Source: Halomonas denitrificans (GTDB lineage Bacteria > Pseudomonadota > Gammaproteobacteria > Xanthomonadales > Wenzhouxiangellaceae). From it: DNA of 64,000 nt. Positions 10,788-54,598 of the stretch are shown piece by piece (position 1 is the stretch's first letter; each line of letters begins with the position of its first letter). The notes under the pieces were generated by a model, which did no database searches, was not told where the DNA came from, and was given only the letters and a program-made list of their open reading frames with translations. The stretch covers positions 496,001 to 560,000 of the forward strand of contig JAHVKF010000003.1 in the NCBI GenBank assembly GCA_019800895.1, read 5' to 3'. The translations under genes and the position numbers were made by a program.

Positions 10788-11801
10788 TCAGGCCTCGTGC
10801 CCGATGCGCACCAAGACCCGCCCCAGCGAGCCGCCGGACAAGGCGTTGTCGAACCACGGCGTCATCTCGTCGAGGCCGACTTCGCGCGCCTCGATGAGGT
10901 CGAGACGGGCCGGTTTCCAGTCGCCGGCGAGCCGGTCCCAGATCCGCTCGCGGATCCGGTACGCACAGCCCGAGGAGTTGATGCCCAGCAGGCTGACGCC
11001 GCGGATGATGAAGGGCATGACCGTGGTCTTCACGCCGATGCCGCCGGCCATGCCGCAGGACGCGATGTTGCCCCAGGGGTGGATCACCCGGGTCAGGCCC
11101 GAAAGCATGTCGCCGCCGACGTTGTCGATCGCGCCGGCCCATCTCGACGAGTCCATCGGTTTTTCGCTCCAGTGCAGGTCCTTGCGGGAGATGCACTGTG
11201 TCGCGCCGAGCTCGCGCAGGCGGTCGAACTGCTCGACCTTGCCCGAGATGGCGTGGGCTTCGTAGCCTGCGCGCGTGAGCAGGTCCAGCGCGATCGATCC
11301 GACGCCGCCGGTGGCGCCGGTGACCACGACCGGGCCCATGTCCGGCGTCTGGCCGCTGGCTTCCATCCGCCACAGGCAGAGGGCGGCGGTGAACCCGGCG
11401 GTGCCGAGGACCATGGCTTCACGGAGGGTCAGGCCCTCGGGCTTCGGGACCAGCCATTCGGAAGGCACCCGCAGATACTCGGAATAGCCGCCGTCGCGGG
11501 TCTCCGACAGGTCGCAGCCGGTGATCAGCACCTCCTCGCCGGGGTCGAAGCGATCGGAATCGCTCCGGACCACGGTGCCAGCGGCGTCGATGCCGCCGTT
11601 GAGCGGGAACCTGCGCAGGATCCGGCCCTTGCCGGTCGCGGCCAGCGCGTCCTTGTAGTTGATGCTCGAATACGCGACGCGGATGACCACGTCGCCTTCG
11701 CTCTGGTCGTCGATCGACTGCTCGACGATCTCCGAGCGGTAGCCGTCCTCGTCGTCGAAGATGCGGAAGGCGCGGAAGGTGTCGGGAATCTCGTTGCTCA
11801 T
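10788..11801 (-). CDS. YhdH/AcuI-type quinone or acrylyl-CoA oxidoreductase
   Basis: A 337-residue zinc-free medium-chain dehydrogenase/reductase. The N-terminal GroES-like half contains SSINYKDALAATGKGRILR and PLNGGIDAAGTVV, and the Rossmann half has the NADP-binding loop VVTGATGGVGSIA. These fit the YhdH/YhfP family, whose characterised members (AcuI) reduce acrylyl-CoA with NADPH. LGINSSGCAYRIRERIWDRLAGDWKP near the C-terminus is also typical of the group. The ATG at 11801 starts at the conserved N-terminus; the longer frame extends into the repeat-bearing gap. Substrate here is not determined. Confidence 0.9.
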   Translation of the reverse strand: MSNEIPDTFRAFRIFDDEDGYRSEIVEQSIDDQSEGDVVIRVAYSSINYKDALAATGKGRILRRFPLNGGIDAAGTVVRSDSDRFDPGEEVLITGCDLSETRDGGYSEYLRVPSEWLVPKPEGLTLREAMVLGTAGFTAALCLWRMEASGQTPDMGPVVVTGATGGVGSIALDLLTRAGYEAHAISGKVEQFDRLRELGATQCISRKDLHWSEKPMDSSRWAGAIDNVGGDMLSGLTRVIHPWGNIASCGMAGGIGVKTTVMPFIIRGVSLLGINSSGCAYRIRERIWDRLAGDWKPARLDLIEAREVGLDEMTPWFDNALSGGSLGRVLVRIGHEA

Positions 11802-11878
11802 TGCAGGGGCTCGGTCATTCGATCGGGGTCGTGCAAGCGTAACGGGTATCGACCCGTGGTTGCAGTGCCATGACGAGG

Positions 11879-12110
11879 TTGAAAAAAGACTGACCGCAGA
11901 TGAACGCAGATGAACGCAGATAACCGCGGATGAAGAAATCCAGTTCCTGAGGCGTGTGCCCCGGCCCCGCTTTCCGCTCGGCGTTGGAGCTGCGTGAACG
12001 AACGCAGGCACACCTTCGGCATCGCCTTCAGGAGTTGGAGGATCGGCCGGGTCCGCTACGGGGTCTCACTGATTCGATCCGCGTTCATCTGCGGCCATGA
12101 CTTTTTTCAT
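11879..12110. mobile_element. MITE-like element with ~32-bp imperfect terminal inverted repeats
   Basis: The 377-base gap between the oxidoreductase gene and lpd contains no credible gene. Its left part (from 11880) reads TGAAAAAAG... then the 10-bp tandem unit TGAACGCAGA (four copies, two exact, 11891-11930). Its right end, read on the minus strand from 12110, gives ATGAAAAAAGTCATGGCCGC then AGATGAACGCGGAT, matching the left end at roughly four of five positions. The segment between is GC-rich with no ORF of its own. The layout is that of a small non-autonomous element; the GCAGATGAACGC motif occurs in intergenic repeats of many environmental proteobacteria. No target-site duplication is certain. 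Confidence 0.5.
11891..11930. repeat. Four 10-bp tandem units
   Basis: Units TGACCGCAGA, TGAACGCAGA, TGAACGCAGA and TAACCGCGGA follow directly on one another inside the left end of the MITE-like element. Confidence 0.8.
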
Positions 12111-12128
12111 CGGATGATGCGGACAAGA

Positions 12129-12153
12129 AAAGGCCCGGCACAGTGGCCGGGCC
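12129..12153 (-). terminator. Intrinsic terminator of the sucAB-lpd operon
   Basis: On the minus strand, GGCCCGG and CCGGGCC form a stem followed by TTTTC, 26 bases after the lpd stop codon. Confidence 0.85.
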
Positions 12154-12178
12154 CCTGGATTTCGCCGCTGCGGCGTGA

Positions 12179-13606
12179 TCAGTTCGCCTTGTGGATCGCC
12201 CGCTTGTCGACCGCCAGGGCGGCTTCGTGGACCGCCTCCGACAGGGTCGGGTGGGCGTGGACGATGCGGGCGAGGTCTTCGGCCGCGCCATGGAACTCCA
12301 TCGTCACGACGACTTCGCCGATCAGCTCCGACGCGTTGGCGCCGACGATCTGGCAGCCCAGCAACTCGTCGGTTTCGGCGTCGGCGAGGATCTTGACCTG
12401 GCCCGAGGCATTGCCCATCGCCAGGCCGCGGCCGGTCGCGGCGAAGGGGAAGCTGCCGGAGCGATACTCGATGCCGGCGTCCTTCAGTTCCGCTTCGGTC
12501 TTGCCGACCCAGGCGATTTCCGGATCGGTGTAGATCACCCAGGGAATGGTTTCGAGGTTGATGTGACCGGACTGACCGGCCAGCGTCTCGGCCACGGCGA
12601 TGCCTTCCTCGGACGCCTTGTGTGCCAGCATCGGGCCGCGGACCAGGTCGCCGATGGCCCAGACACCGTCTGCCGAGGTGCGGCAGTGACCGTCGACTTC
12701 GACCTGGCCCCGGTCCGTGAGCTTCACGCCGCTGTCGTCGGACACCAGGCCATCGGAGGCGGCGCGGCGTCCCACGGCGACCAGAAGCTTGTCGAACACT
12801 TCCGTGTGCTCGTCCTTGCCGTCCGAATAGGTGACCGACACCTTCCCGTCCTCGACCTTCGCACCGCTGACCTTGCAGCCCATGCGGATGTCCAGACCCT
12901 GCTTCTTGAACTCGCGCTGGGCGATCCTGGCCATGTCGCGGTCGATCACCGGCAGGAAGTCGTCCACGGCTTCGAGCAGCACCACGTCGCTGCCCAGGCG
13001 GCGCCAGACGCTGCCCATTTCCAGCCCGATCACGCCGGCGCCGATCACGCCAAAACGCTCGGGCACCTCGGGAATCTCGAGCGCGCCGACGTTGTCGAGG
13101 ATGTATTCGTTGTCGACCTCGACATTGGGGATCGAGAAGGGCACCGAGCCGGCCGCCAGCACGATGTGCTTGGCCGTCGCGGTGTACTTGTCACCGTCGT
13201 TCGGCGTGACCTCGACCTGGCGGTCGGCGAACAGCTTGCCGCGGCCGTTGACGAAGTCGATCTTGTTGGCCTTGAACAGCTGGATCAGGCCGCTGTTCAG
13301 CTGCTTGACCACCTTGCGCTTGCGGTCGAGCATCTTGTCCACGTCGATCGAGACGTCTCCGGTGGAGATGCCGTGCTCGGTGTAGTCGTGCTGGATGTGG
13401 TGGAAGTGCTTCGACGAATCGAGCAGCGCCTTGGACGGAATGCAGCCCACGTTGAGGCAGGTGCCGCCCGGCGCCGGCTTGCCGTCGTCGCCCTTGCGGT
13501 CGTCGATCAGCAGGGTCTTCAGGCCCAGCTGTGCGGTCCGGATGGCTCCGGCATAGCCGCCGGGGCCGCCACCGATGAAGATCACGTCGAATTGGTTGTC
13601 GGACAT
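12179..13606 (-). CDS. lpdA: Dihydrolipoyl dehydrogenase (E3)
   Basis: A 475-residue flavoprotein. The FAD-binding GGGPGGYAGA motif is at residues ~12-21 and the redox-active disulfide in GGTCLNVGCIPSKALL near 47-62. The NAD-binding GAGVIGLEMGSVW is at ~185-197, and the C-terminal catalytic base lies in HAHPTLSEAVHEA. It reoxidises dihydrolipoamide on E2 for the 2-oxoglutarate dehydrogenase complex and probably for the glycine cleavage system, whose gcvP is nearby. It is the last gene after sucA-sucB and is followed by a clear terminator. Confidence 0.97.
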   Translation of the reverse strand: MSDNQFDVIFIGGGPGGYAGAIRTAQLGLKTLLIDDRKGDDGKPAPGGTCLNVGCIPSKALLDSSKHFHHIQHDYTEHGISTGDVSIDVDKMLDRKRKVVKQLNSGLIQLFKANKIDFVNGRGKLFADRQVEVTPNDGDKYTATAKHIVLAAGSVPFSIPNVEVDNEYILDNVGALEIPEVPERFGVIGAGVIGLEMGSVWRRLGSDVVLLEAVDDFLPVIDRDMARIAQREFKKQGLDIRMGCKVSGAKVEDGKVSVTYSDGKDEHTEVFDKLLVAVGRRAASDGLVSDDSGVKLTDRGQVEVDGHCRTSADGVWAIGDLVRGPMLAHKASEEGIAVAETLAGQSGHINLETIPWVIYTDPEIAWVGKTEAELKDAGIEYRSGSFPFAATGRGLAMGNASGQVKILADAETDELLGCQIVGANASELIGEVVVTMEFHGAAEDLARIVHAHPTLSEAVHEAALAVDKRAIHKAN

Positions 13607-44933: not shown

Positions 44934-47174
44934 GTGGTCGGGACTGACACAGCCCCCGCCCGAGGCGGCGAGGCAGGGCACGGACGCGGGCAGCACCCGC
45001 ATCGACCCGGCGCGCTGGCTGCCCTGGCCGGTGGCCTGACCCTGATCCTGGCGCTGCCCGTGGTGCTCACGCTCCGGACGCTGGACGCGACCGGGTTCGA
45101 ATGCCTGCTGGCGCTGCTCGGCACCCTGGGCCTGGTGCTCGTGCTGATCGCCCTGCACGCCCTGGGTCGACCGAAGCCCGGCTGGGCCTGGCTGATTCCC
45201 GTGCTTCTCCTGCTGCTGGTGACGCGCCTGCTGCAGCACGGGGTGGTGGATTTCAGCGGCGCGGGCTTCACCCAGGAGTTCTTTCTCCACCTGCAGGGCG
45301 AGTCGGTCGGTGTCGCGCTGCAGGAGTACGACCGGCTGGCGCGTCGCGGCGCCGTGCTGCTGGTGCTGATGCTGGCCCTGGTCATCGGCCTGACTCGACG
45401 GCCGGTGCTCGCGGGGGGACGGGCGATCGGCCTCGTTGCGGCGCTCGGCGGCGGGCTGCTCGCCACCGGCTTCGTCCTCCAGCCGGAGGTCCGCTTCGTG
45501 CAGGGGTGGCTGAATTGGAACTCGCCGCGGGTGACCACGGTGGACCGGGCCGTGCTCGACCGGTGGGCCGAGAGCGGCCTGGTGGACGTGAGCCTGCGCG
45601 GCAAGCACCGCATCGATGCCGCCCCCGCCGCCTCGCCGAAGAATCTCGTCGTCGTCTACCTGGAGTCGATCGGGGTCCATCTCGTCGATCAGCAGCGCTG
45701 GCCGGGGTTGATGCCGAACCTGGCGCGGTTGATCGAGGACCATGGCTGGGTCGATCACCTCTGGGCGAGCGGCTACATCACGATCGAGGGCCTCACCAAT
45801 TCGCTTTGCGGCACGCTGATTCCCTTCGATCGCGGCAGCGACTCGTTGGCCGAAGGCGCCGGACTGGCGGCACAGCTGCCCTGTCTCGGCGATGTGCTGG
45901 ACCGCGCCGGCTACCGCCAGGTCTATCTCGGCGGGGCCGGTACCGGGTTCGCCGGCAAGGGCGCCTTCCTGGCCGCGCACGGTTACGACGAGGTGCTGGG
46001 CATCGAGGACTGGCGCGAGCGTGGCCTGGACCAGCGACCGGACACCTGGGGGCTGGCCGATCCCGACCTGCTCGAGCAGTCGCTGGAGTGGATCGAACGC
46101 CTCGAGACCGGCGACGCGCCGTGGAACCTCACGCTGCTGACCATCGGAACCCATCTGCCCGGCTATCGCTACGCCGAATGCACCCCGTACCCGGGCGGCA
46201 ACGACCGCTTCCTCGACGCCGTGCACTGCACCGACCAGCTGCTGGCGCGATGGGTGGAGTCGATCCGGGCGTCCGGCGTGCTCGACGACACGGTGGTGGT
46301 GATCACCGCCGACCACCACATCTTCCCGAGCGACGACATGCAGGACCTGTTCGGCGACGGCGTGTTCGACCGGCGGCTGCCGATGGTCGTGCTCGGCGCG
46401 GCCGAGACAGAAGCCGCGCAGTCCGAGGGCGCGAGCTACGACCTGGCGCCGACCGTGCTCGACCTGCTGGGCGTCGAGCACGACGCCGAGTTCGCCCTGG
46501 GCCGATCGCTGAGCGAGGCCGCCGAGGGGCCACGCTACTTCGTCACCCGCTTCGTCGATTTTCATGCGGGTCGTCCGCTCGACAACAAGCGCCCCTGCGA
46601 ACGAGATGCGCCGATCGAATACCCGGTCGACGCCTGCGCCAAGGACGAGCTGTTGTCGGTGCTCAACGGCCTGGCGGCGAGCTTTTCCCTGGCTCCGACC
46701 CGGCTCCGCTGCTCCGACCGCGTTCCGGCCGAGATGACCATCGTCGGCGCCGACGCGCAGGCGCTCGAGGTTCGCTTCGGGGGGCGGGACCAGGCGGGTC
46801 GCTTCATCCACCGGGGGCGGCCGGTGCCCCCGCAGCGGCCCGGTTGGTACCTGACCCTGCTCGATCGCGACGGTACGGTGCTGGCCCGCCGCTATCGCCC
46901 CTTCGAACTCGGGCCGGGGGAAACGGACGAGGACCTGAACGCCGACCTCGCCGAAGCGGCCAGCGCGTTCGTGGCCCGCCTGGGCGCGCCCGGCTCGACC
47001 TCGATGATCGACGCACCGCTGGCGACCGTGATCGAGCACTCGTCGCCGCTGGCCTGGATCGAGGTCGACGAAGGCCGGGAGCTGGCAGCAGGGCGATCGG
47101 TCGGCGATCCCGGCGGCTGGCACCTGGCCATCGACGGCCGGACCTGTCGGGGCGTACTGGGCGATTCACGCTGA
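44934..47174 (+). CDS. LtaS-like sulfatase-fold membrane enzyme (first of a convergent pair)
   Basis: A 746-residue protein, GTG start. Five hydrophobic segments between residues ~27 and 180 precede an extracytoplasmic alkaline-phosphatase-superfamily domain (~230-540): metal-ligand Glu in VVVYLESIG, probable nucleophile Thr in SGYITIEGLTNS, His in LTIGTHLPGY and the Asp-His pair in VVITADHHIF. This fits LTA synthase/phosphoethanolamine or phosphoglycerol transferases. A ~200-residue C-terminal extension follows (LRCSDRVPAEMTIVGAD... ), possibly a beta domain. Located 15 bases after guaA. In a Gram-negative cell the target may be periplasmic glucan or lipid A; that is inference. Confidence 0.85.
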   Translation: MVGTDTAPARGGEAGHGRGQHPHRPGALAALAGGLTLILALPVVLTLRTLDATGFECLLALLGTLGLVLVLIALHALGRPKPGWAWLIPVLLLLLVTRLLQHGVVDFSGAGFTQEFFLHLQGESVGVALQEYDRLARRGAVLLVLMLALVIGLTRRPVLAGGRAIGLVAALGGGLLATGFVLQPEVRFVQGWLNWNSPRVTTVDRAVLDRWAESGLVDVSLRGKHRIDAAPAASPKNLVVVYLESIGVHLVDQQRWPGLMPNLARLIEDHGWVDHLWASGYITIEGLTNSLCGTLIPFDRGSDSLAEGAGLAAQLPCLGDVLDRAGYRQVYLGGAGTGFAGKGAFLAAHGYDEVLGIEDWRERGLDQRPDTWGLADPDLLEQSLEWIERLETGDAPWNLTLLTIGTHLPGYRYAECTPYPGGNDRFLDAVHCTDQLLARWVESIRASGVLDDTVVVITADHHIFPSDDMQDLFGDGVFDRRLPMVVLGAAETEAAQSEGASYDLAPTVLDLLGVEHDAEFALGRSLSEAAEGPRYFVTRFVDFHAGRPLDNKRPCERDAPIEYPVDACAKDELLSVLNGLAASFSLAPTRLRCSDRVPAEMTIVGADAQALEVRFGGRDQAGRFIHRGRPVPPQRPGWYLTLLDRDGTVLARRYRPFELGPGETDEDLNADLAEAASAFVARLGAPGSTSMIDAPLATVIEHSSPLAWIEVDEGRELAAGRSVGDPGGWHLAIDGRTCRGVLGDSR

Positions 47175-47233: not shown

Positions 47234-49048
47234 TCAGGGTGTGTGGCTTGCGGCCGCCCTCGCAGGCCTCGCCCGGCAATCGCCCGGCGGTCGATGAAGC
47301 ACTTCGGCATACAGCGCCAGCATCTCGTCGCTCTCGATCACCCCGGCCAGCGCGGGATCCCCCTGAGCCCGGATCAGCGCATGCTGGATCGGGCATCGCG
47401 ACACCCCGCTCCGGTCGACCAGCCACAGGCCGAGTTCGTACGAGCGCTCGGGTGCCGCACCGGGCCGGATCGGAGCGAGATCGCGGTTCGAGAGCAGCAG
47501 CCAGGGCACCGGCTGCCGGTTCATCGGTTCCGGTCGGTCGAAGCCGCTGCGATCGAAGACCTCGTCGAGGGCTGGAAGGTGATCCCCGAAGAACAGCAGC
47601 AGCGTCGGGCGGTCGCGCTGCATCATCCAGTCGACCAGGCGCTCCAGTTCGGCCACGGCAGCGCGCGCGTGGTAGGTGTACTGCCGGAGCGCCAGCGCTT
47701 CGTGGGCCCGCAGGTTCGGCGGGACGGGAATGCGATCGAGCTCCGCGGCGCCGGGCCCGGGGCGTTCTTCGTTCCAGGGGCCATGGTTCTCCATGCTGAT
47801 CGCGAACAGGAACCAGGGTGCGGCGAGCGCGTCGCCGAGGTCGATGACGGCGTCCGTCAGCACCGTGTCCGAAATCCAGAATCCGCGCCGTTGGCGGTCA
47901 TGCAGCTCGTCGGCGGCGATGAAGCGTTCGAAGCCCAGCGCAGGCATCGCGAGATCGCGGTTCCAGAAGCCGCGCGAGTGCGGATGGACGACCGCGGTCC
48001 GGTAGCCGGCTTCGCGGAAGGTCCAGGCGATCGACTGCGTCGGCCGGGTCACGACCGAGTTGTACGGGTAGACCTCTCGCGCCAGGGCGCGGTATGGAAC
48101 GCCGGTCAGGATTTCGAACTCCGTCCGGGTGGTGTTGCCGCCGAAGGTCGGCACCAGCATCTCGCCGGACAGGCCGGCGTCCCGGATGCGGCACCAGCCG
48201 GGCAGGGCGGTGCAGTCCTCGAGTCCGGCCAGCATCGACGGGTCGAAGAAGCTTTCGCTGAGGACCACGAGAACGTCGGGCGGGGTGTCGCCGGTGCCGA
48301 CCACGGTGCCGACCCCGGTGCGTTGATCCCCGGCGTCTGCACCTTCGATCTTCTCCAGCGCGCGCGCCAGCGCACGGGGATTCCGTGCCGGTCGGGCGGC
48401 CACGCGCCGCGCCGAGTGCGCGACCAGCTGCGCGACCAGCCCCACGTTCTCGATCCGGCCATCCACCGCCCACGCGCGCTCGTAGAAACCGGCCTCCTCG
48501 TAGACGCGCTCGGCCGACGACGACAGCAACCAGCCGGCGCCGGCGAGGGCGATCGCCAGGAGGGCGACCTGCCAGGCGCCGGCTCGCTGGGGAGGCTCGA
48601 GGCGCCGCATCGCGAGCGCGAGGCCGATCACCAGCCCGACGACCACGAGCAGGATCGCCCCGTGACTGTAGCGTACGAACAGGCCGATGTCGGCCAGCAG
48701 CTGGGCGGTCAACCCGATGTCGTGGATCGAGAACGGCTGGCCGAGTTCCTCGAGCTTGACCGCATTGATGTACTGGATGAACGCAAGCGGAAGCAGGGCG
48801 GCCAACGCGGCCAGCGAGGCCCTGCGAACCAGCACCAGCGCCGCGAGGTAGATCACCAGGACGGGCGCGATGTTGAGAAGCAGCCGGGGCAGCGGCCGGA
48901 CGGCGTCGATCCAGGGGTCGAGCGCGACGACCGCGGCAGCGAGTGCCAGCACGGCGAGGGCGTGCAGCGCAAGGCGGCCGGTCCAGGGCCACCTCGAACG
49001 GCGATTCCGCCGGTTCACTCCCGGACCTATGACATGCTTGGTGCTCAA
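47234..49048 (-). CDS. LTA synthase family membrane enzyme (second of the pair)
   Basis: A 604-residue protein with about five N-terminal membrane helices (~27-185) and a sulfatase-fold domain (~255-560) closer to classical LtaS than its neighbour: Glu in LVVLSESFFDPS, nucleophile Thr in FGGNTTRTEFEILTG, His in SMENHGPW and Asp-His in LLFFGDHLPALD. It would transfer a phospho-alcohol (glycerophosphate or ethanolamine phosphate) to a periplasmic acceptor. Convergent with the other LtaS-like gene; the two are divergent paralogues, not recent copies. Confidence 0.88.
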   Translation of the reverse strand: MSTKHVIGPGVNRRNRRSRWPWTGRLALHALAVLALAAAVVALDPWIDAVRPLPRLLLNIAPVLVIYLAALVLVRRASLAALAALLPLAFIQYINAVKLEELGQPFSIHDIGLTAQLLADIGLFVRYSHGAILLVVVGLVIGLALAMRRLEPPQRAGAWQVALLAIALAGAGWLLSSSAERVYEEAGFYERAWAVDGRIENVGLVAQLVAHSARRVAARPARNPRALARALEKIEGADAGDQRTGVGTVVGTGDTPPDVLVVLSESFFDPSMLAGLEDCTALPGWCRIRDAGLSGEMLVPTFGGNTTRTEFEILTGVPYRALAREVYPYNSVVTRPTQSIAWTFREAGYRTAVVHPHSRGFWNRDLAMPALGFERFIAADELHDRQRRGFWISDTVLTDAVIDLGDALAAPWFLFAISMENHGPWNEERPGPGAAELDRIPVPPNLRAHEALALRQYTYHARAAVAELERLVDWMMQRDRPTLLLFFGDHLPALDEVFDRSGFDRPEPMNRQPVPWLLLSNRDLAPIRPGAAPERSYELGLWLVDRSGVSRCPIQHALIRAQGDPALAGVIESDEMLALYAEVLHRPPGDCRARPARAAASHTP

Positions 49049-49701: not shown

Positions 49702-49830
49702 CGAAGTCGGACGTCGCCTCGACAATTGCGCCCGGCCGGGCACGCGCCCGGTCCGCACATCCCGGGTCGAACCCTGAGCGTTCGAGCCATGGTCGTCCAC
49801 CCCGTACTGCCCCGAAAGGTCTGTCGCAGC

Positions 49831-50751
49831 ATGATCGTCACCCGTCCCGATGAGTTTCGCGAACGCCTGGCCGAAGGCTGGCTCAACGCCGATTGCCCGT
49901 CGGTGCCGCGCGCCGTGTTCCTGGTCGAGCCCGCCGATTTCCGCCTCTCCCGCCAGGCCGCTCGCGACAACCGCTACATGGACCTGACCGTCGGAGTCAG
50001 CCCGTCGCTCGCGCTGGCGCAGCACCGGCGCCTGACCGAGGAGATCGCCGCCTGCGGCGTGCCCGTGATCCGCTTCCCCGGTCGCGAGGACAACCCCGAC
50101 GACTTGTTCCCCAACAACGTGTTCGCGACCATTCCCGGGCGCTTCATCGTCGGCGCCATGCTCAACCCCGAGCGCCAGCGCGAAGCCCGGCGCGACGATA
50201 TCCGCGCCTTCTTCGCCGACCTGATGGAATACGAGACCGTCGATCTCGGTGCGGACGATTCCTGCGTCGCCGAGCTCACCGGCGCGCTGGTCATGGACCG
50301 TGCGCGCAGGCTCGGGTTCTGCGGCATGACCCGGCGCGTCGACGAGGCCGGTTGCCGAGCCATGCACGAGGCCTTCGAACTCGCCATGACCTTCCGCTTC
50401 GATCTCGATCCGGCGGAGTACCACACCAACGTGGTCATGTCGGTGCTGGCCTCGCGCGCCCTGGTCATCTGCCCGGACGCGTTCGTCGACCCGGCGGTGC
50501 CCGATGCGATCGCCGAATCGTTTCCCGGTCACGTGCTCGAGATCTCGCAGGAGGAAAAAACGGCCTTCGCCGGCAACTGCCTGGCCCTGACCGCGAAGGA
50601 CCTGTTCTTCAGTGCCACGGCCTGGCGGGCGCTGGCGCCCGAGAAGCGGGAGCGGCTGAAGGACTGGGGATTCCGGGTCCATGCGGTCGAACTCGACGAG
50701 ATCGAGAAGGCCGGCGGATCGTTGCGCTGCTGCATCGCCGAGATCTTCTGA
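49831..50751 (+). CDS. CtlX-type arginine deiminase-related amidinohydrolase
   Basis: A 306-residue member of the guanidino-group-modifying enzyme superfamily. Substrate-binding Asp is in NPDDLFPNNVFAT (~90-102), the catalytic His in DPAEYHTNVVMS (~195) and the nucleophilic Cys in GGSLRCCIAEIF at the C-terminus (~300). These match the CtlX/citrulline-utilisation hydrolase group, and no arginine deiminase operon partners are adjacent. I chose the ATG at 49831 (AAAGG 12 bases upstream); 49789 is an alternative. Substrate (citrulline, arginine or other) is not determined. Confidence 0.85.
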   Translation: MIVTRPDEFRERLAEGWLNADCPSVPRAVFLVEPADFRLSRQAARDNRYMDLTVGVSPSLALAQHRRLTEEIAACGVPVIRFPGREDNPDDLFPNNVFATIPGRFIVGAMLNPERQREARRDDIRAFFADLMEYETVDLGADDSCVAELTGALVMDRARRLGFCGMTRRVDEAGCRAMHEAFELAMTFRFDLDPAEYHTNVVMSVLASRALVICPDAFVDPAVPDAIAESFPGHVLEISQEEKTAFAGNCLALTAKDLFFSATAWRALAPEKRERLKDWGFRVHAVELDEIEKAGGSLRCCIAEIF

Positions 50752-51133: not shown

Positions 51134-51961
51134 ATGAGAAACGCTATTTCGAATTCCATCCTCGGACGGACGGCCGCCGCAGGCGCGTTGCTGCTGGGTG
51201 CAGCATTCGCCGGCCAGGCCGCCATGGCTTGCACGCTCAACAACTGGAGCGCCAACTCCGGCGCCGTCGCTGCGGGCGATCCGCAGGCGAACAGCATTGC
51301 GCGCTACGCCGGCCTCTGCGGCATGGAAGCCACCGGTGCCGGCTACGTCCAGGACAACAACCCGGGCGGCATCGACCGGATCGTCGCGCGCTTCTACGTG
51401 CTCGCCGACAATTCCGCGACCGCCAACGTCTACCAGGGCTTCGGCGACACCGCAGGCGGCAGCCAGCGCTTCGACGTCAGCGTCGATGCCAGCGGCAACA
51501 TCACCCTGACCGACACGCTGACCGGCCAGAGCGTCAGCCAGGCCGGCGTTTCGGGCAACTGGAACTCGGTCGAGATCGACTGGGCACAGGGCGCCGGCAA
51601 CGGCGTGATTTCCCTTTCGGTCAACGGCCAGGCCGCGGTCGAGAACACCACGCTGAGCAACGTCGGCACGCAGCTGCAGTCGGTTCGCCTCGGCAACATC
51701 AACGGCGCCGCCGGCACCCTGGGCTTCGACGCGTACGAGTCGCGCCGCAGCACGGCGGTCGGTCGGGTCTGCAACTGCAATGCAAACGGTAGCGCCGACG
51801 ACTCGGTCAACGTTCAGGACGTCATCGTCCTGGTCAACGAGGCGGGTGGTGCTGCGCTGTCCACCGGAACGCCGGACTGCAACGAAGACGGCAACATCAA
51901 CATCCAGGACATCGTTCAGACCGTGAACATCGCCGGCACCACCGGCGCCTGCCTGCTGTAA
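51134..51961 (+). CDS. Secreted lectin-like protein with C-terminal dockerin-like domain
   Basis: A 275-residue protein; signal peptide to ~35 (QAAMA). Residues ~40-205 look like a concanavalin-type beta sandwich (GGIDRIVARFYVLADN, WNSVEIDWAQGAGNG, SVRLGNINGAAGTLGFDAYE). Residues 213-275 are dockerin-like: two EF-hand-type calcium loops, the first degenerate (CNANGSADDSVNVQDVIV) and the second canonical (DCNEDGNINIQDIVQTV), with cysteines that could form a disulfide. Dockerins bind cohesin domains; the next two genes look like cohesin proteins. RBS CAGGAG nine bases upstream. The family assignments are by pattern, not search. Confidence 0.8.
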   Translation: MRNAISNSILGRTAAAGALLLGAAFAGQAAMACTLNNWSANSGAVAAGDPQANSIARYAGLCGMEATGAGYVQDNNPGGIDRIVARFYVLADNSATANVYQGFGDTAGGSQRFDVSVDASGNITLTDTLTGQSVSQAGVSGNWNSVEIDWAQGAGNGVISLSVNGQAAVENTTLSNVGTQLQSVRLGNINGAAGTLGFDAYESRRSTAVGRVCNCNANGSADDSVNVQDVIVLVNEAGGAALSTGTPDCNEDGNINIQDIVQTVNIAGTTGACLL

Positions 51962-51987
51962 ACCGAATTTTTGAGGAGTTGACCATC

Positions 51988-52461
51988 ATGTCGATCAATC
52001 GTGGAATTCTGGCTGCAGCAGCAGCCGTGACGCTGGCCGCAGGCGCGGCCATTGCAAGCGACAACGAAGCCTCGTCGGCGGATCTGTGGATCCAGAAGTC
52101 CGGCAACGGCTTCACCGTGGAGTACGTGTCGGACGGCCGGGTCGCAGGCCTGCAGTTCGACGTCAAGGGGATCAAGGTGGTCGACGGCCAGTTCGACTGC
52201 GGCACCAGCGTGGCCGAATCGCACACCGCCAGCTGCTCCATCAACTCGGACGGCAACCTCCGGGTCATCGTGTTCTCGATGACCAACGAGGTCCTGCCCG
52301 ACGGCACGATGGTGACGATTGCGCCGCCTTCGCGCGACAACACGTCGCGGATGCAGGCGCGCCAGCTGGCGGCCGCCAGCGAGGCCGAATCGGTCGCGCT
52401 GGACGGCGTGCTCTTCGCCGATGCGCAGGGCGCGGACGTCACGCCCGACCACCTCCAATAA
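51988..52461 (+). CDS. Small secreted cohesin-like protein
   Basis: A 157-residue protein with a signal peptide (cleavage near AIASD, ~25). The mature part carries VAGLQFDVKGIKVVDGQFDC and then a cysteine pair, followed by LRVIVFSMTNEVLPDGTMVTI, an order of beta strands recalling the GFQFDITYDP and later strands of cohesin-type domains; it also fits the cohesin-like start of the next gene. C-terminal ~40 residues are Ala/Ser-rich. The ATG at 51988 has GAGGAG nine bases upstream. It is 26 bases after the dockerin-like gene, so cotranscribed. A role as dockerin-binding partner is inference. Confidence 0.7.
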   Translation: MSINRGILAAAAAVTLAAGAAIASDNEASSADLWIQKSGNGFTVEYVSDGRVAGLQFDVKGIKVVDGQFDCGTSVAESHTASCSINSDGNLRVIVFSMTNEVLPDGTMVTIAPPSRDNTSRMQARQLAAASEAESVALDGVLFADAQGADVTPDHLQ

Positions 52462-52498
52462 CTAGACAACCGATCTCAATCCAGGAGTGAGACTAGCC

Positions 52499-54451
52499 AT
52501 GTACTTCAAGAAACTTCTTCCGGCGAGCATCGCCGGGGCCGCTCTGCTGGCCTCGGCAGGCGCGTTTGCCGATATCGACATCACTGTCAACAGTGCTTCG
52601 GGTTCTGTCGGCAGCACCGTGGTCATCACCTATGACTACAGCGCGCTGGATGCCGACGACGTCGGTGGGTTCCAGTTCGACATCACCTACGACCCGTCGT
52701 CGCTCACGCCGACGGATATCTCCAACTGCGGCAACAACCGACCGGGCACGCACAATGCATCGTGCACCGAGCCGGGCGGCGCCGGGAACGGGACCATCCG
52801 CACGCTGATCGCGGACTTCACCCCGCCGACCGACGAAATCACGCCGTTCAATATCGCGTCGTTCGGCCAGTTCACGTTCCAGATCGACCAGCCGGGCACC
52901 CACACGCTGACCTTCACCAATGCCGTGGGTTCGGATACCGCCGGTGGGAACGTCAACATGACCGGCAACAACGCCACGATCACCGGCTCGATCACCGGCG
53001 CGGCCGGGTACTCGTCGACCCCGGCTTCGGGCGCGACCATCGACCTCGGGCCGACCCCGGTCGGCACAACGGTCGGCGGCATCGGTGCGGTGACCGTGAG
53101 CGAAATCGGTGACCAGCAGCTCGACGTGACCGGGTTCCCGAGCAGCAACGCAGACATCGCGGTGACCACCGCGCCGTTCAGCATTCCGGACGGCGGTGCG
53201 TCGGTCGGTGTCGACATCGAGTGCACGCCCTCGACCCGCGGCAACATCATGGGCAACGTCGAGTTCACCAACAACTCGGTGAACCAGCCGAACGCGAACT
53301 ACGATGTGCAGTGCCAGGGCGAGTCGCCGAACGTGGCCGTTTCGACCACGACGATCAACCTGACCGGGGTGATCGGCGGCACGAACCCGTCGGGCTCGTT
53401 CGACATTACCAACGCGGACGACGGCTTCACCAATGCCGCCACCAACGCGACGCTGACCGACGGCGGCGCAAGCACGCCGGACATCATCATCACCGACGGT
53501 CTGAACGACGCCACCATCCAGGTCGACGAGACCGACTCGGTGACCGTGGAGTGCGATACGACCACGGCGGGCATGTCGTCCGAGAACATTACCCTGACCT
53601 TCGACGACCCGAACGAAGCCGGCGGCACTGGCACGCGCACGGTCACCGTCAACTGCGACATCGCCAACGCGGTTCCGTCCTTCGCCGGTACCCCGGCGTC
53701 CCCGGGCCCCCTGAACTTCGGCACGGTGACCAACGGCACCACCTCGGCGCCGATCGGTATCGACGTGGCCAACGACGGCGTCGGCCCGAGCCCGGCGTCC
53801 GACCTGCTGCTGTCGAGCGTGACCGTCAGCGATCCGCAGTTCGCGGCCGTCATCAATGACCCGGGTCCGTTCCAGGTCGGCGATCCGGCCACGGCCGACG
53901 CGGTCGAGGTGACCTGTACGCCGGACGCCGGCACCACCGGTTCCTTCACCGGCACGCTGACGATCAACCACAACGGTGACGACGATCCGACCACGTACAA
54001 CCTCGAGTGCGCCGGTCAGACCGACGCCACGTTCTCGTCGACCCCGCCGGACGGCGGCACCCTGAACCTCGGCATCGTTCCGCCGGTGACGATGACGCCC
54101 CCGGGCGACATCACGTTCTCCAATGGTGGTTCGGTCGACAGCTACGACGTGGACTGCACCGTGACCGATCCGGACGGCGTGTTCACCTTCTCGCCGGATC
54201 CGATCAGCTTCACGGTCGCACCGGGCGGTTCGCAGTCCGCGACGTTCCAGTGCACCCCGGCCGCACCGCAGATCTACCAGGCCGACGTGGCCTGCACGGT
54301 GACCGGCGCGGACGTGGCATCGGCCAACTACACCGTGACCTGCGCCGGCCAGCCGCTCGTGGTTCCGACCATGAACCGCTGGGGCCTGATCCTGATGGCA
54401 CTGGTGCTTCTCGCCCTGGGCGGGTTCGCCGGTCGCCGGATGATGGCGTAA
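52499..54451 (+). CDS. Cohesin-like, repeat-rich surface protein with IPTL-CTERM signal
   Basis: A 650-residue exported protein; signal peptide to ~25 (AGAFAD). Residues ~26-165 form a cohesin-like domain (VGSTVVITYDYSALDAD, GGFQFDITYDPSSLTP). Four Cys-poor Ig-like repeats of ASH/choice-of-anchor type follow (~170-275, ~280-390, ~391-505, ~506-615), each with strands such as LNFGTVTNGTTSAP and ending in a VxCxG-like edge. It ends with VPTMNRWG, a hydrophobic helix and GRRMMA (622-650), the IPTL-CTERM signal that in other bacteria is processed by exosortase XrtH. Low in Lys, rich in Thr, Asp and Gly. Probably cell-surface displayed; last gene before a strong terminator. Confidence 0.85.
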   Translation: MYFKKLLPASIAGAALLASAGAFADIDITVNSASGSVGSTVVITYDYSALDADDVGGFQFDITYDPSSLTPTDISNCGNNRPGTHNASCTEPGGAGNGTIRTLIADFTPPTDEITPFNIASFGQFTFQIDQPGTHTLTFTNAVGSDTAGGNVNMTGNNATITGSITGAAGYSSTPASGATIDLGPTPVGTTVGGIGAVTVSEIGDQQLDVTGFPSSNADIAVTTAPFSIPDGGASVGVDIECTPSTRGNIMGNVEFTNNSVNQPNANYDVQCQGESPNVAVSTTTINLTGVIGGTNPSGSFDITNADDGFTNAATNATLTDGGASTPDIIITDGLNDATIQVDETDSVTVECDTTTAGMSSENITLTFDDPNEAGGTGTRTVTVNCDIANAVPSFAGTPASPGPLNFGTVTNGTTSAPIGIDVANDGVGPSPASDLLLSSVTVSDPQFAAVINDPGPFQVGDPATADAVEVTCTPDAGTTGSFTGTLTINHNGDDDPTTYNLECAGQTDATFSSTPPDGGTLNLGIVPPVTMTPPGDITFSNGGSVDSYDVDCTVTDPDGVFTFSPDPISFTVAPGGSQSATFQCTPAAPQIYQADVACTVTGADVASANYTVTCAGQPLVVPTMNRWGLILMALVLLALGGFAGRRMMA

Positions 54452-54484
54452 CGCAATCGCCGGGCGCCTGACGCCCCGATTCGG

Positions 54485-54512
54485 AAAAGGCCGCCCCCGG
54501 GGCGGCCTTTTT
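54485..54512 (+). terminator. Strong intrinsic terminator
   Basis: AAAAGGCCGCCCC and GGCGGCCTTTTT: a ten-bp GC stem with a 5' A-run and 3' T-run, 34 bases after the IPTL-CTERM protein stop. Confidence 0.9.
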
Positions 54513-54598
54513 CATTTGTGGCGGCACCGACCCGGCTTGAAGTCGAGCGGTCGGCCACGCCGCGATCCGCGGTTCAGCACGGATTCAGACCGCCGGAC

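Follow-up and report, generated by a model that had tools for sequence, protein, structure and literature searches.

Within a 64,000-nucleotide stretch of the Halomonas denitrificans genome (GenBank assembly GCA_019800895.1, contig JAHVKF010000003.1, positions 496,001 to 560,000; hereafter the window, in whose numbering coordinates are given), we analyzed three consecutive open reading frames on the plus strand, P1 (51134..51961), P2 (51988..52461) and P3 (52499..54451), that together resemble a small operon for cohesin-dockerin docking. The intergenic gaps are 26 and 37 bases. Each gene has an AGGAG-like site 5′ of it, and each product begins with what by eye resembles a signal peptide, from which we infer that all three are exported. 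The products are a 275-residue protein with a lectin-fold domain followed by a C-terminal dockerin, a 157-residue lone cohesin that has neither stalk nor anchor, and a 650-residue scaffold composed of a cohesin, a stalk and an IPTL-CTERM sorting tail. The features described below lie on the plus strand unless stated otherwise, and the host genome comprises 3.2 Mb in 6 contigs.

The dockerin module occupies residues 208-275 of P1 (51755..51958) and was identified from a family profile compared with solved dockerins and from Pfam matches in homologues. An earlier note, made from the letters of the window alone, had described a dockerin-like pair of calcium loops at this end of P1. The second loop, DCNEDGNINIQD (51875..51910; recognition positions 10-11 are IQ), is as described there, and the first is NGSADDSVNVQD (51785..51820; recognition positions VQ); both carry calcium ligands at positions 1, 3, 5 and 12. 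The two dockerin helices (residues 227-237 and 257-268) lie in a region of middling confidence in the P1 model. The set of calcium ligands among 25 modules of the family is complete in loop 1 of 17 and in loop 2 of 23 by script, or 24 after a by-eye correction for locus L038. Profile searches bore out the dockerin assignment at the level of the family but not for the window copy alone. The family alignment matched 33 chains of solved structures at E ≤ 0.1 (best E 2.7e-6), most of which are by name cellulosomal dockerins while the rest include several EF-hand proteins, and Pfam Dockerin_1 (PF00404) matched 11 of the 25 modules at E ≤ 0.1, with a best value of 1.5e-11. The window P1 searched as a whole protein stayed sub-threshold against PF00404 (E 0.37, 11.5 bits). 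Across the whole host genome the Pfam model gave nothing at E ≤ 0.001, and the family dockerin profile gave a single match, on P1.

P3 opens, as the earlier note had proposed, with a cohesin domain (52571..52993), which Pfam Cohesin recognizes at E 1.4e-8 and 35.5 bits against a cut-off of 24.1 (40.3 bits in the genome scan). The profile of the P3-cohesin family matches solved cohesins with a best E of 8.6e-7, so the cohesin searches are significant at both levels; Pfam Cohesin matches 9 of 18 P3 homologues at E ≤ 0.1, and P3 itself has one recognized cohesin. There follows a stalk of choice-of-anchor D or HYDIN-like Ig repeats (52994..54343; NCBIfam choice_anch_D 51.8 bits, Pfam PF22544 36.8 bits) and then the IPTL-CTERM tail, VPTMNRWGLILMALVLLALGGFAGRR (54362..54439; TIGR04174). 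This tail scores 26.4 bits in the genome scan, above the NCBIfam cut-off, and 16.9 of 20.8 bits against the Pfam IPTL-CTERM model, below cut-off; IPTL-CTERM matches 12 of the 18 P3 homologues at E ≤ 0.1. Twelve such tails lie above cut-off in the host genome, among which that of P3 ranks second, and none does in 14 control genomes, eight of which have weaker matches. XrtH, which we take to be the exosortase paired with the IPTL-CTERM tail (the NCBIfam names agree), is encoded elsewhere in the host genome (199.1 bits, cut-off 86) and is present in 41 of the 43 genomes of our family sample. The sortable C-terminus suggested for P3 is thus upheld both by its motif and by the presence of XrtH.

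The host genome encodes a second protein with a cohesin-like N-terminus (L064:5816-7993; G000:C2, ~245.8-248.0 kb), which scores 15.8 bits with Pfam Cohesin, below cut-off, and E 4.5e-6 with the family profile, and is followed by a 196-residue open reading frame whose product has a weak IPTL-like tail. Elsewhere, a tandem pair of P3 genes stands behind a single P1 and P2 (L039:4488-8621, G009), and P3-like proteins downstream of P1-like genes have another C-terminal tail, VVPVPSSSDF followed by a hydrophobic stretch (L071:9230-10930 and 11130-12962, two such genes in tandem, and L072:2996-4678).

The 157-residue product of P2 had been called cohesin-like, and its predicted fold is that of a cohesin. 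An alignment of P2 proteins matched the P3-cohesin alignment with an E of 1.1e-12 (hhalign), and the predicted structure (pLDDT 78.9) gave a VIA list in which rows 1-44 are all cohesins (Z 10.9 to 7.9) and the first non-cohesin has a Z of 7.8. The best Foldseek matches were also cohesins, 2vo8 (E 5.4e-4) and 2jh2 (8.4e-4), with TM-scores of ~0.4 and YcnI close behind. There was no credible Pfam or NCBIfam match for the window P2, Pfam Cohesin (PF00963) matched none of nine P2 homologues, the profile of P2 homologues had no match by sequence among solved structures, and the family cohesin profile did not pick up the window P2 at E ≤ 0.001. The same family profile does find P2 homologues in G005 (E 6e-7) and G010 (1.8e-6), and in nine loci of a second search (best 1.4e-11, L077).

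The remainder of P1, approximately residues 33-207 (51230..51754), is a ConA/LamG-like beta-sandwich. The predicted structure (pLDDT 81.3, pTM 0.68) places the strands of the sandwich between residues 40 and 205, and structural searches gave a best Foldseek E of 6.8e-7 and a best VIA Z of 15.7 over 167 residues, while Laminin_G_2 and Laminin_G_3 each matched one of 26 P1 homologues. The lectin-like, sugar-binding-like character attributed to P1 in the earlier note therefore stands as a statement of fold only: the structural neighbors range over glucuronan and alginate lyases, CBM66, LamG, lectin domains and binding domains of several toxins, and because they are so diverse the fold tells little about a ligand or activity. 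No enzyme-family match was found in P1 by the Pfam and NCBIfam scans. Records titled Chloroflexi and Anaerolineales (L083, L084 and L085) have a P1 lectin-like domain with no dockerin or cohesin match within the stretch examined.

Conservation among relatives had been named as a check on the proposed complex, and the set is indeed conserved. Homologues of P1 are found in 28 of the 43 genomes sampled and in 23 of the 25 good ones among them; the dockerin profile likewise matches in 28 (22 of the good ones), with exactly one match in 23 of these 28, and the cohesin profile in 25 (21 of the good ones). For 27 of the 34 dockerin matches a cohesin match on the same strand lies no more than 4 kb downstream, and 30 of 37 cohesin matches have a dockerin upstream. 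Two of the seven unpaired dockerins are at contig ends (G012, G034:C25), three are in proteins of ~2000 residues (G027:C333, G021, G024:C37), one (G034:C82) precedes a cohesin-like gene which escaped the profile and which groups with that of L018 in the tree, and one (G018) is a weak match. Across the 43 genomes both modules occur in 25, the dockerin only in 3, the cohesin only in none and neither in 15, an association to which we give no weight as it is confounded by genome completeness. Sets like P1-P2-P3 are also present in L069, L070, L073, L077 and L080, in metagenome-assembled genome records titled Alcanivoracaceae, Lysobacterales and Gammaproteobacteria, the first two of which may or may not lie outside the family of the window; the third gene is recognized by its tail only in L073 and L080, and the contig ends within it in L069 and L070. 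At the g7 loci with a readable next gene, P1 and P3 adjoin and nothing like P2 separates them. A class-wide search matched 4 of 369 genomes, the host included. The other three have a lectin without dockerin (G409, L087) or dockerin-like pieces in large proteins (G123 and G380, L088-L090), which by eye resemble RHS/YD-repeat proteins.

Could the linkage of dockerin and cohesin be the product of a neighborhood that has simply remained frozen? Seven flanking genes were sought near 46 loci, several of which are the same locus twice, and were found near the close relatives L034-L041 and the duplicates L065-L068; outside these, DDAH was also found in L055, and otherwise there were only weak RR matches (~31%) in L042 and L053. 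Because the flanking genes, bar the weak RR matches, are common to close relatives only, the P1-P2-P3 set persists in different surroundings, and a frozen neighborhood is not supported as the cause of the linkage.

Variants of the arrangement were seen at several loci. One genome (G031) has three separate dockerin-cohesin pairs (L018, L059, L060) with different recognition motifs, and offers a natural test of pair specificity. In G041, a P1-like protein (L054:7135-8031) matches over residues 13-208 only, and its dockerin is replaced by a hydrophobic tail with a basic end. The family profiles gave no dockerin or cohesin match in that genome, yet XrtH is present. Against the profile of P3 tails, however, the L054 tail reaches only E 0.015, the first among non-members, and the protein had no NCBIfam or Pfam match. 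This is a hint that in L054 docking may have been exchanged in nature for direct anchoring, which would speak for P3 as an anchor. Three proteins of ~2000 residues (L056:3753-9689, L057:3879-9839 and L058:2881-9147) have lectin and dockerin mid-chain, with FG-GAP and TIG domains after the dockerin in L056, and each is followed by a gene of ~620 codons, which in L056 encodes an autotransporter beta-domain protein. A reading of these proteins as fusions was not used, as their flanking cohesin-like domains were seen by eye only; no cohesin domain was found in L056 by Pfam, or in L082 on the same contig by the family profile.

If the dockerin of P1 does dock, its sequence should bear the marks. 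According to passages of PMC8063739, both repeats of a dockerin have their specificity determinants at positions 10 and 11, and symmetry at the level of sequence is crucial for dual binding. We compared the two repeats within 27 dockerins of the family, with the expectation obtained by shuffling repeats between proteins. At positions 10-11 the repeats of the same protein agree in 34 cases versus 7.3 expected (0 of 20,000 shuffles), or 19 versus 4.9 in the 18 non-redundant dockerins (0 of 20,000), and the whole dipeptide is identical between the halves in 13 of the 27 versus 0.9 expected; repeat 1 has 22 different dipeptides among the 27 dockerins. The window copy has VQ and IQ. An excess of matches between halves was found at positions 10-22 except 15, 16 and 19, and was much smaller, though not explained by chance, at loop positions 1-9 (89 versus 70.1; 0 of 20,000, or 5 of 20,000 for the non-redundant dockerins). 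Excluded from the comparison were L034, L035, L037, L039 and L040 (redundant with the window), L073 and L080 (an insertion in loop 2), L057 and L058 (repeat 1 cut off) and L038 (repeat 1 unparsed). Did a recent gene conversion or duplication produce this symmetry? Where residues match at positions 10-22, their codons are the same in 84 of 193 cases versus 85.3 expected from codon usage. Since codon agreement is no higher than codon usage predicts, a recent event of either kind fails to explain the symmetry, which is present in the proteins but not in the codons.

The dockerins have also diverged together with the cohesins beside them. Distance tests covered 24 of 26 pairs (L038 and L061 had no parsed repeats), and distances over the dockerin helix (positions 10-22) track those of the neighboring P3 cohesin when the lectin domain is controlled for (partial r 0.71, 0 of 5000; rank partial r 0.45, 0 of 2000, n = 24). 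By ranks, loop positions 1-9 track it less, at 0.15 (146 of 2000), and so do positions 15, 16 and 19, at 0.12 (208 of 2000). Within g7 alone the values are 0.49 for the helices (0 of 2000, n = 13), 0.08 for the loop and 0.36 for positions 15, 16 and 19 (10 of 2000), and for the helices in the non-g7 half the value is 0.81 (n = 11). P2 tracks the dockerin as well, at 0.84 given the lectin domain and 0.59 given P3 (1 of 2000), whereas P3 given P2 gives 0.50 (66 of 2000; n = 11 throughout). The P1 and cohesin trees leave many forks unresolved and have clades in common that include the B-type pair (100/99 and 96/91), L069/L070/L077 and L036/L038. Symmetry of the two halves without homogenization of codons, combined with co-divergence of helices and cohesin, is what docking predicts, and the two tests, though made on sequences, support real docking.

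We conclude, with a probability of about 0.72, that the products of the operon form a minimal cohesin-dockerin surface complex of a non-cellulosomal kind, as the earlier note had suggested, and this proposal now has in its favor the identities of the domains, the conserved set, the symmetry of the dockerin halves and the tracking of dockerin and cohesin. In such a complex, P1 would be exported with its lectin-fold domain facing outward, where it may bind a glycan or other surface molecule, and its dockerin, presumably folded around calcium, would plug into the cohesin borne at the P3 tip. The Ig-like stalk would hold this cohesin out as a socket, and P3 would become fixed at the cell surface once XrtH had processed the IPTL-CTERM tail. 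P2 would then offer this dockerin an unattached cohesin, acting as an additional partner or capping P1 ahead of P3 or in its place. We put forward only tentatively, at rather less than an even chance, the more specific idea of one plug and two sockets, in which a single dual-binding dockerin is exchanged between P2, a cap or release factor, and the exosortase-sorted P3, thereby displaying the lectin on a Gram-negative surface.

Several observations tell against the conclusion that P1 docks onto a surface scaffold. The window dockerin is below the Pfam PF00404 cut-off even when the module is searched alone (15.5 of 22.9 bits, E 0.02), its halves match at only 6 of 13 positions over 10-22, and those of the B- and C-type pairs (L048, L059, L018), of the fused L082 and of the A-type L052 match at 1-3 of 13. 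Loop 1 lacks the full set of calcium ligands, by our own rule, in 8 of 25 dockerins. In the protein scan the P3 tail only just equals the NCBIfam cut-off (20.5 of 20.5 bits), and 7 of 37 cohesin matches stand alone. In addition, the P1 and cohesin trees disagree over L052, and in the non-g7 half the calcium-loop positions track the cohesin too (0.62, 1 of 2000), which makes the co-divergence in that half less specific.

The degenerate first loop of some dockerins would fit an account in which dockerins and cohesins are no more than calcium-folded and Ig-like structural modules that do not dock and occur together as parts of a matrix or S-layer. Domain names, after all, prove no binding, and in Methylomirabilis, according to part of PMC8671808, an S-layer is made of an IPTL-CTERM protein. 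We nevertheless think this improbable, as it leaves out of account both the symmetry at recognition positions without codon homogenization and the co-divergence of the helices with the cohesin, in which the loop positions share less overall. Another account takes the cohesin of P2 as the real partner, with P1 and P2 forming a soluble pair, either secreted or periplasmic, and the P3 cohesin a structural Ig-like domain of a surface or matrix protein onto which P1 does not dock. P2 is a cohesin, its gene adjoins P1, and given P3 it tracks the dockerin somewhat better (0.59) than P3 does given P2 (0.50). However, the g7 loci that could be read have P1 adjoining P3 with no P2-like gene between, and within g7 the dockerin tracks the P3 cohesin (0.49, 0 of 2000, n = 13), and we therefore hold a P1-P2 pair of this kind to be unlikely.

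As P3 joins a cohesin to an anchor in the manner of anchoring scaffoldins, an enzyme complex resembling a cellulosome might be considered, in which P3 would recruit hydrolases that carry dockerins. Such a complex would call for several of these hydrolases in the genome, and this reading was rejected: the sole dockerin match by the family profile is on P1, the Pfam model finds none at E ≤ 0.001, P1 has no enzyme-family match and P3 has one recognized cohesin. We regard it as very improbable, and return to the minimal surface complex as the reading we prefer.

The operon is probably closed by a terminator, a hairpin with a T-run at 54483..54513 (-34.5 kcal/mol, z -3.7; none of 200 shuffles scored as well) that is absent from the list of a consensus terminator scan; a consensus scan of the region found no promoter on the plus strand. 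Upstream is a DDAH-like gene (49726-50751, plus strand; Pfam PF19420, 144.3 bits), which adjoins the operon in close relatives, and the downstream flank in the window has a two-component system and MazG. Farther upstream, two membrane proteins (44934-47174, plus strand, and 47234-49048, minus strand) by eye resemble sulfatase-fold phosphoglycerol transferases.

What is new here? The modules and the sorting tail are of known kinds, and the novelty, among the matches listed, is the combination of docking with exosortase sorting in proteobacteria. We found no paper that joins the two in proteobacteria among the matches listed from the open-licence literature, and the main text of the AB-CW3 paper mentions neither cohesin nor dockerin (PMC7691419). 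Non-cellulosomal cohesins and dockerins have been reported from many organisms (portions of PMC5244752 and PMC9012536), archaeal versions are reported to bind (an excerpt of PMC9012536), and the function of such modules outside cellulosomes has been called unknown (an excerpt of PMC5244752). Similarly, the biological relevance of dual binding modes is termed elusive, with functionless gene duplication as one hypothesis, in a section of PMC8063739. A small natural system of one dockerin and one or two cohesins makes both questions testable, and the family offers many natural specificity variants (22 dipeptides among 27 dockerins). If a single plug does serve two sockets, dual-binding symmetry would have been kept by selection without a crowded multi-enzyme scaffold. 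The XrtH/IPTL-CTERM pathway, for its part, gains a client whose predicted job is readable, that of holding a second protein.

One close comparison is with the type I cellulosomal systems of Clostridium, Acetivibrio and others, with which the operon shares homologous cohesin and dockerin modules and the calcium-loop motifs, and with dual-binding cellulosomal dockerins it shares two-fold sequence symmetry (as outlined in part of PMC8063739). Unlike these type I systems, most carriers here have one dockerin per genome, borne by a lectin-fold protein and not by enzymes, and the scaffold has one recognized cohesin and an exosortase-type tail in a Gram-negative bacterium. Single-cohesin proteins with C-terminal membrane helices are on record in Lachnoclostridium, in a portion of a survey of cellulosome-bearing bacteria (PMC11557425). 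Also close are the archaeal and other non-cellulosomal modules of Archaeoglobus fulgidus and ANME, cohesins and dockerins that likewise have nothing to do with cellulose, and the A. fulgidus cohesin 2xdh is the top structural match of P2 by Z (10.9); each ANME genome is described as encoding many variable proteins of this kind, whereas here the operon is fixed and combines a free cohesin with a scaffold that carries a sorting tail. The cohesin-like modules of Clostridium perfringens (2vo8, 2jh2), the top Foldseek matches of P2, also lie outside cellulosomes, but there, by entry title, the module is part of a glycoside hydrolase, and P2 is a cohesin alone. As for anchoring, the tail and its sortase both occur in the host genome, as in IPTL-CTERM/XrtH and PEP-CTERM/EpsH sorting. 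EpsH sorting has been proposed as a counterpart of LPXTG/sortase (PMC1569441), and the IPTL-CTERM protein of Methylomirabilis is reported to be a surface-layer protein in a two-membrane bacterium (likewise from part of PMC8671808). What sets the operon apart from the accounts of either pathway among the matches listed is that sorting would be combined with cohesin-dockerin docking.

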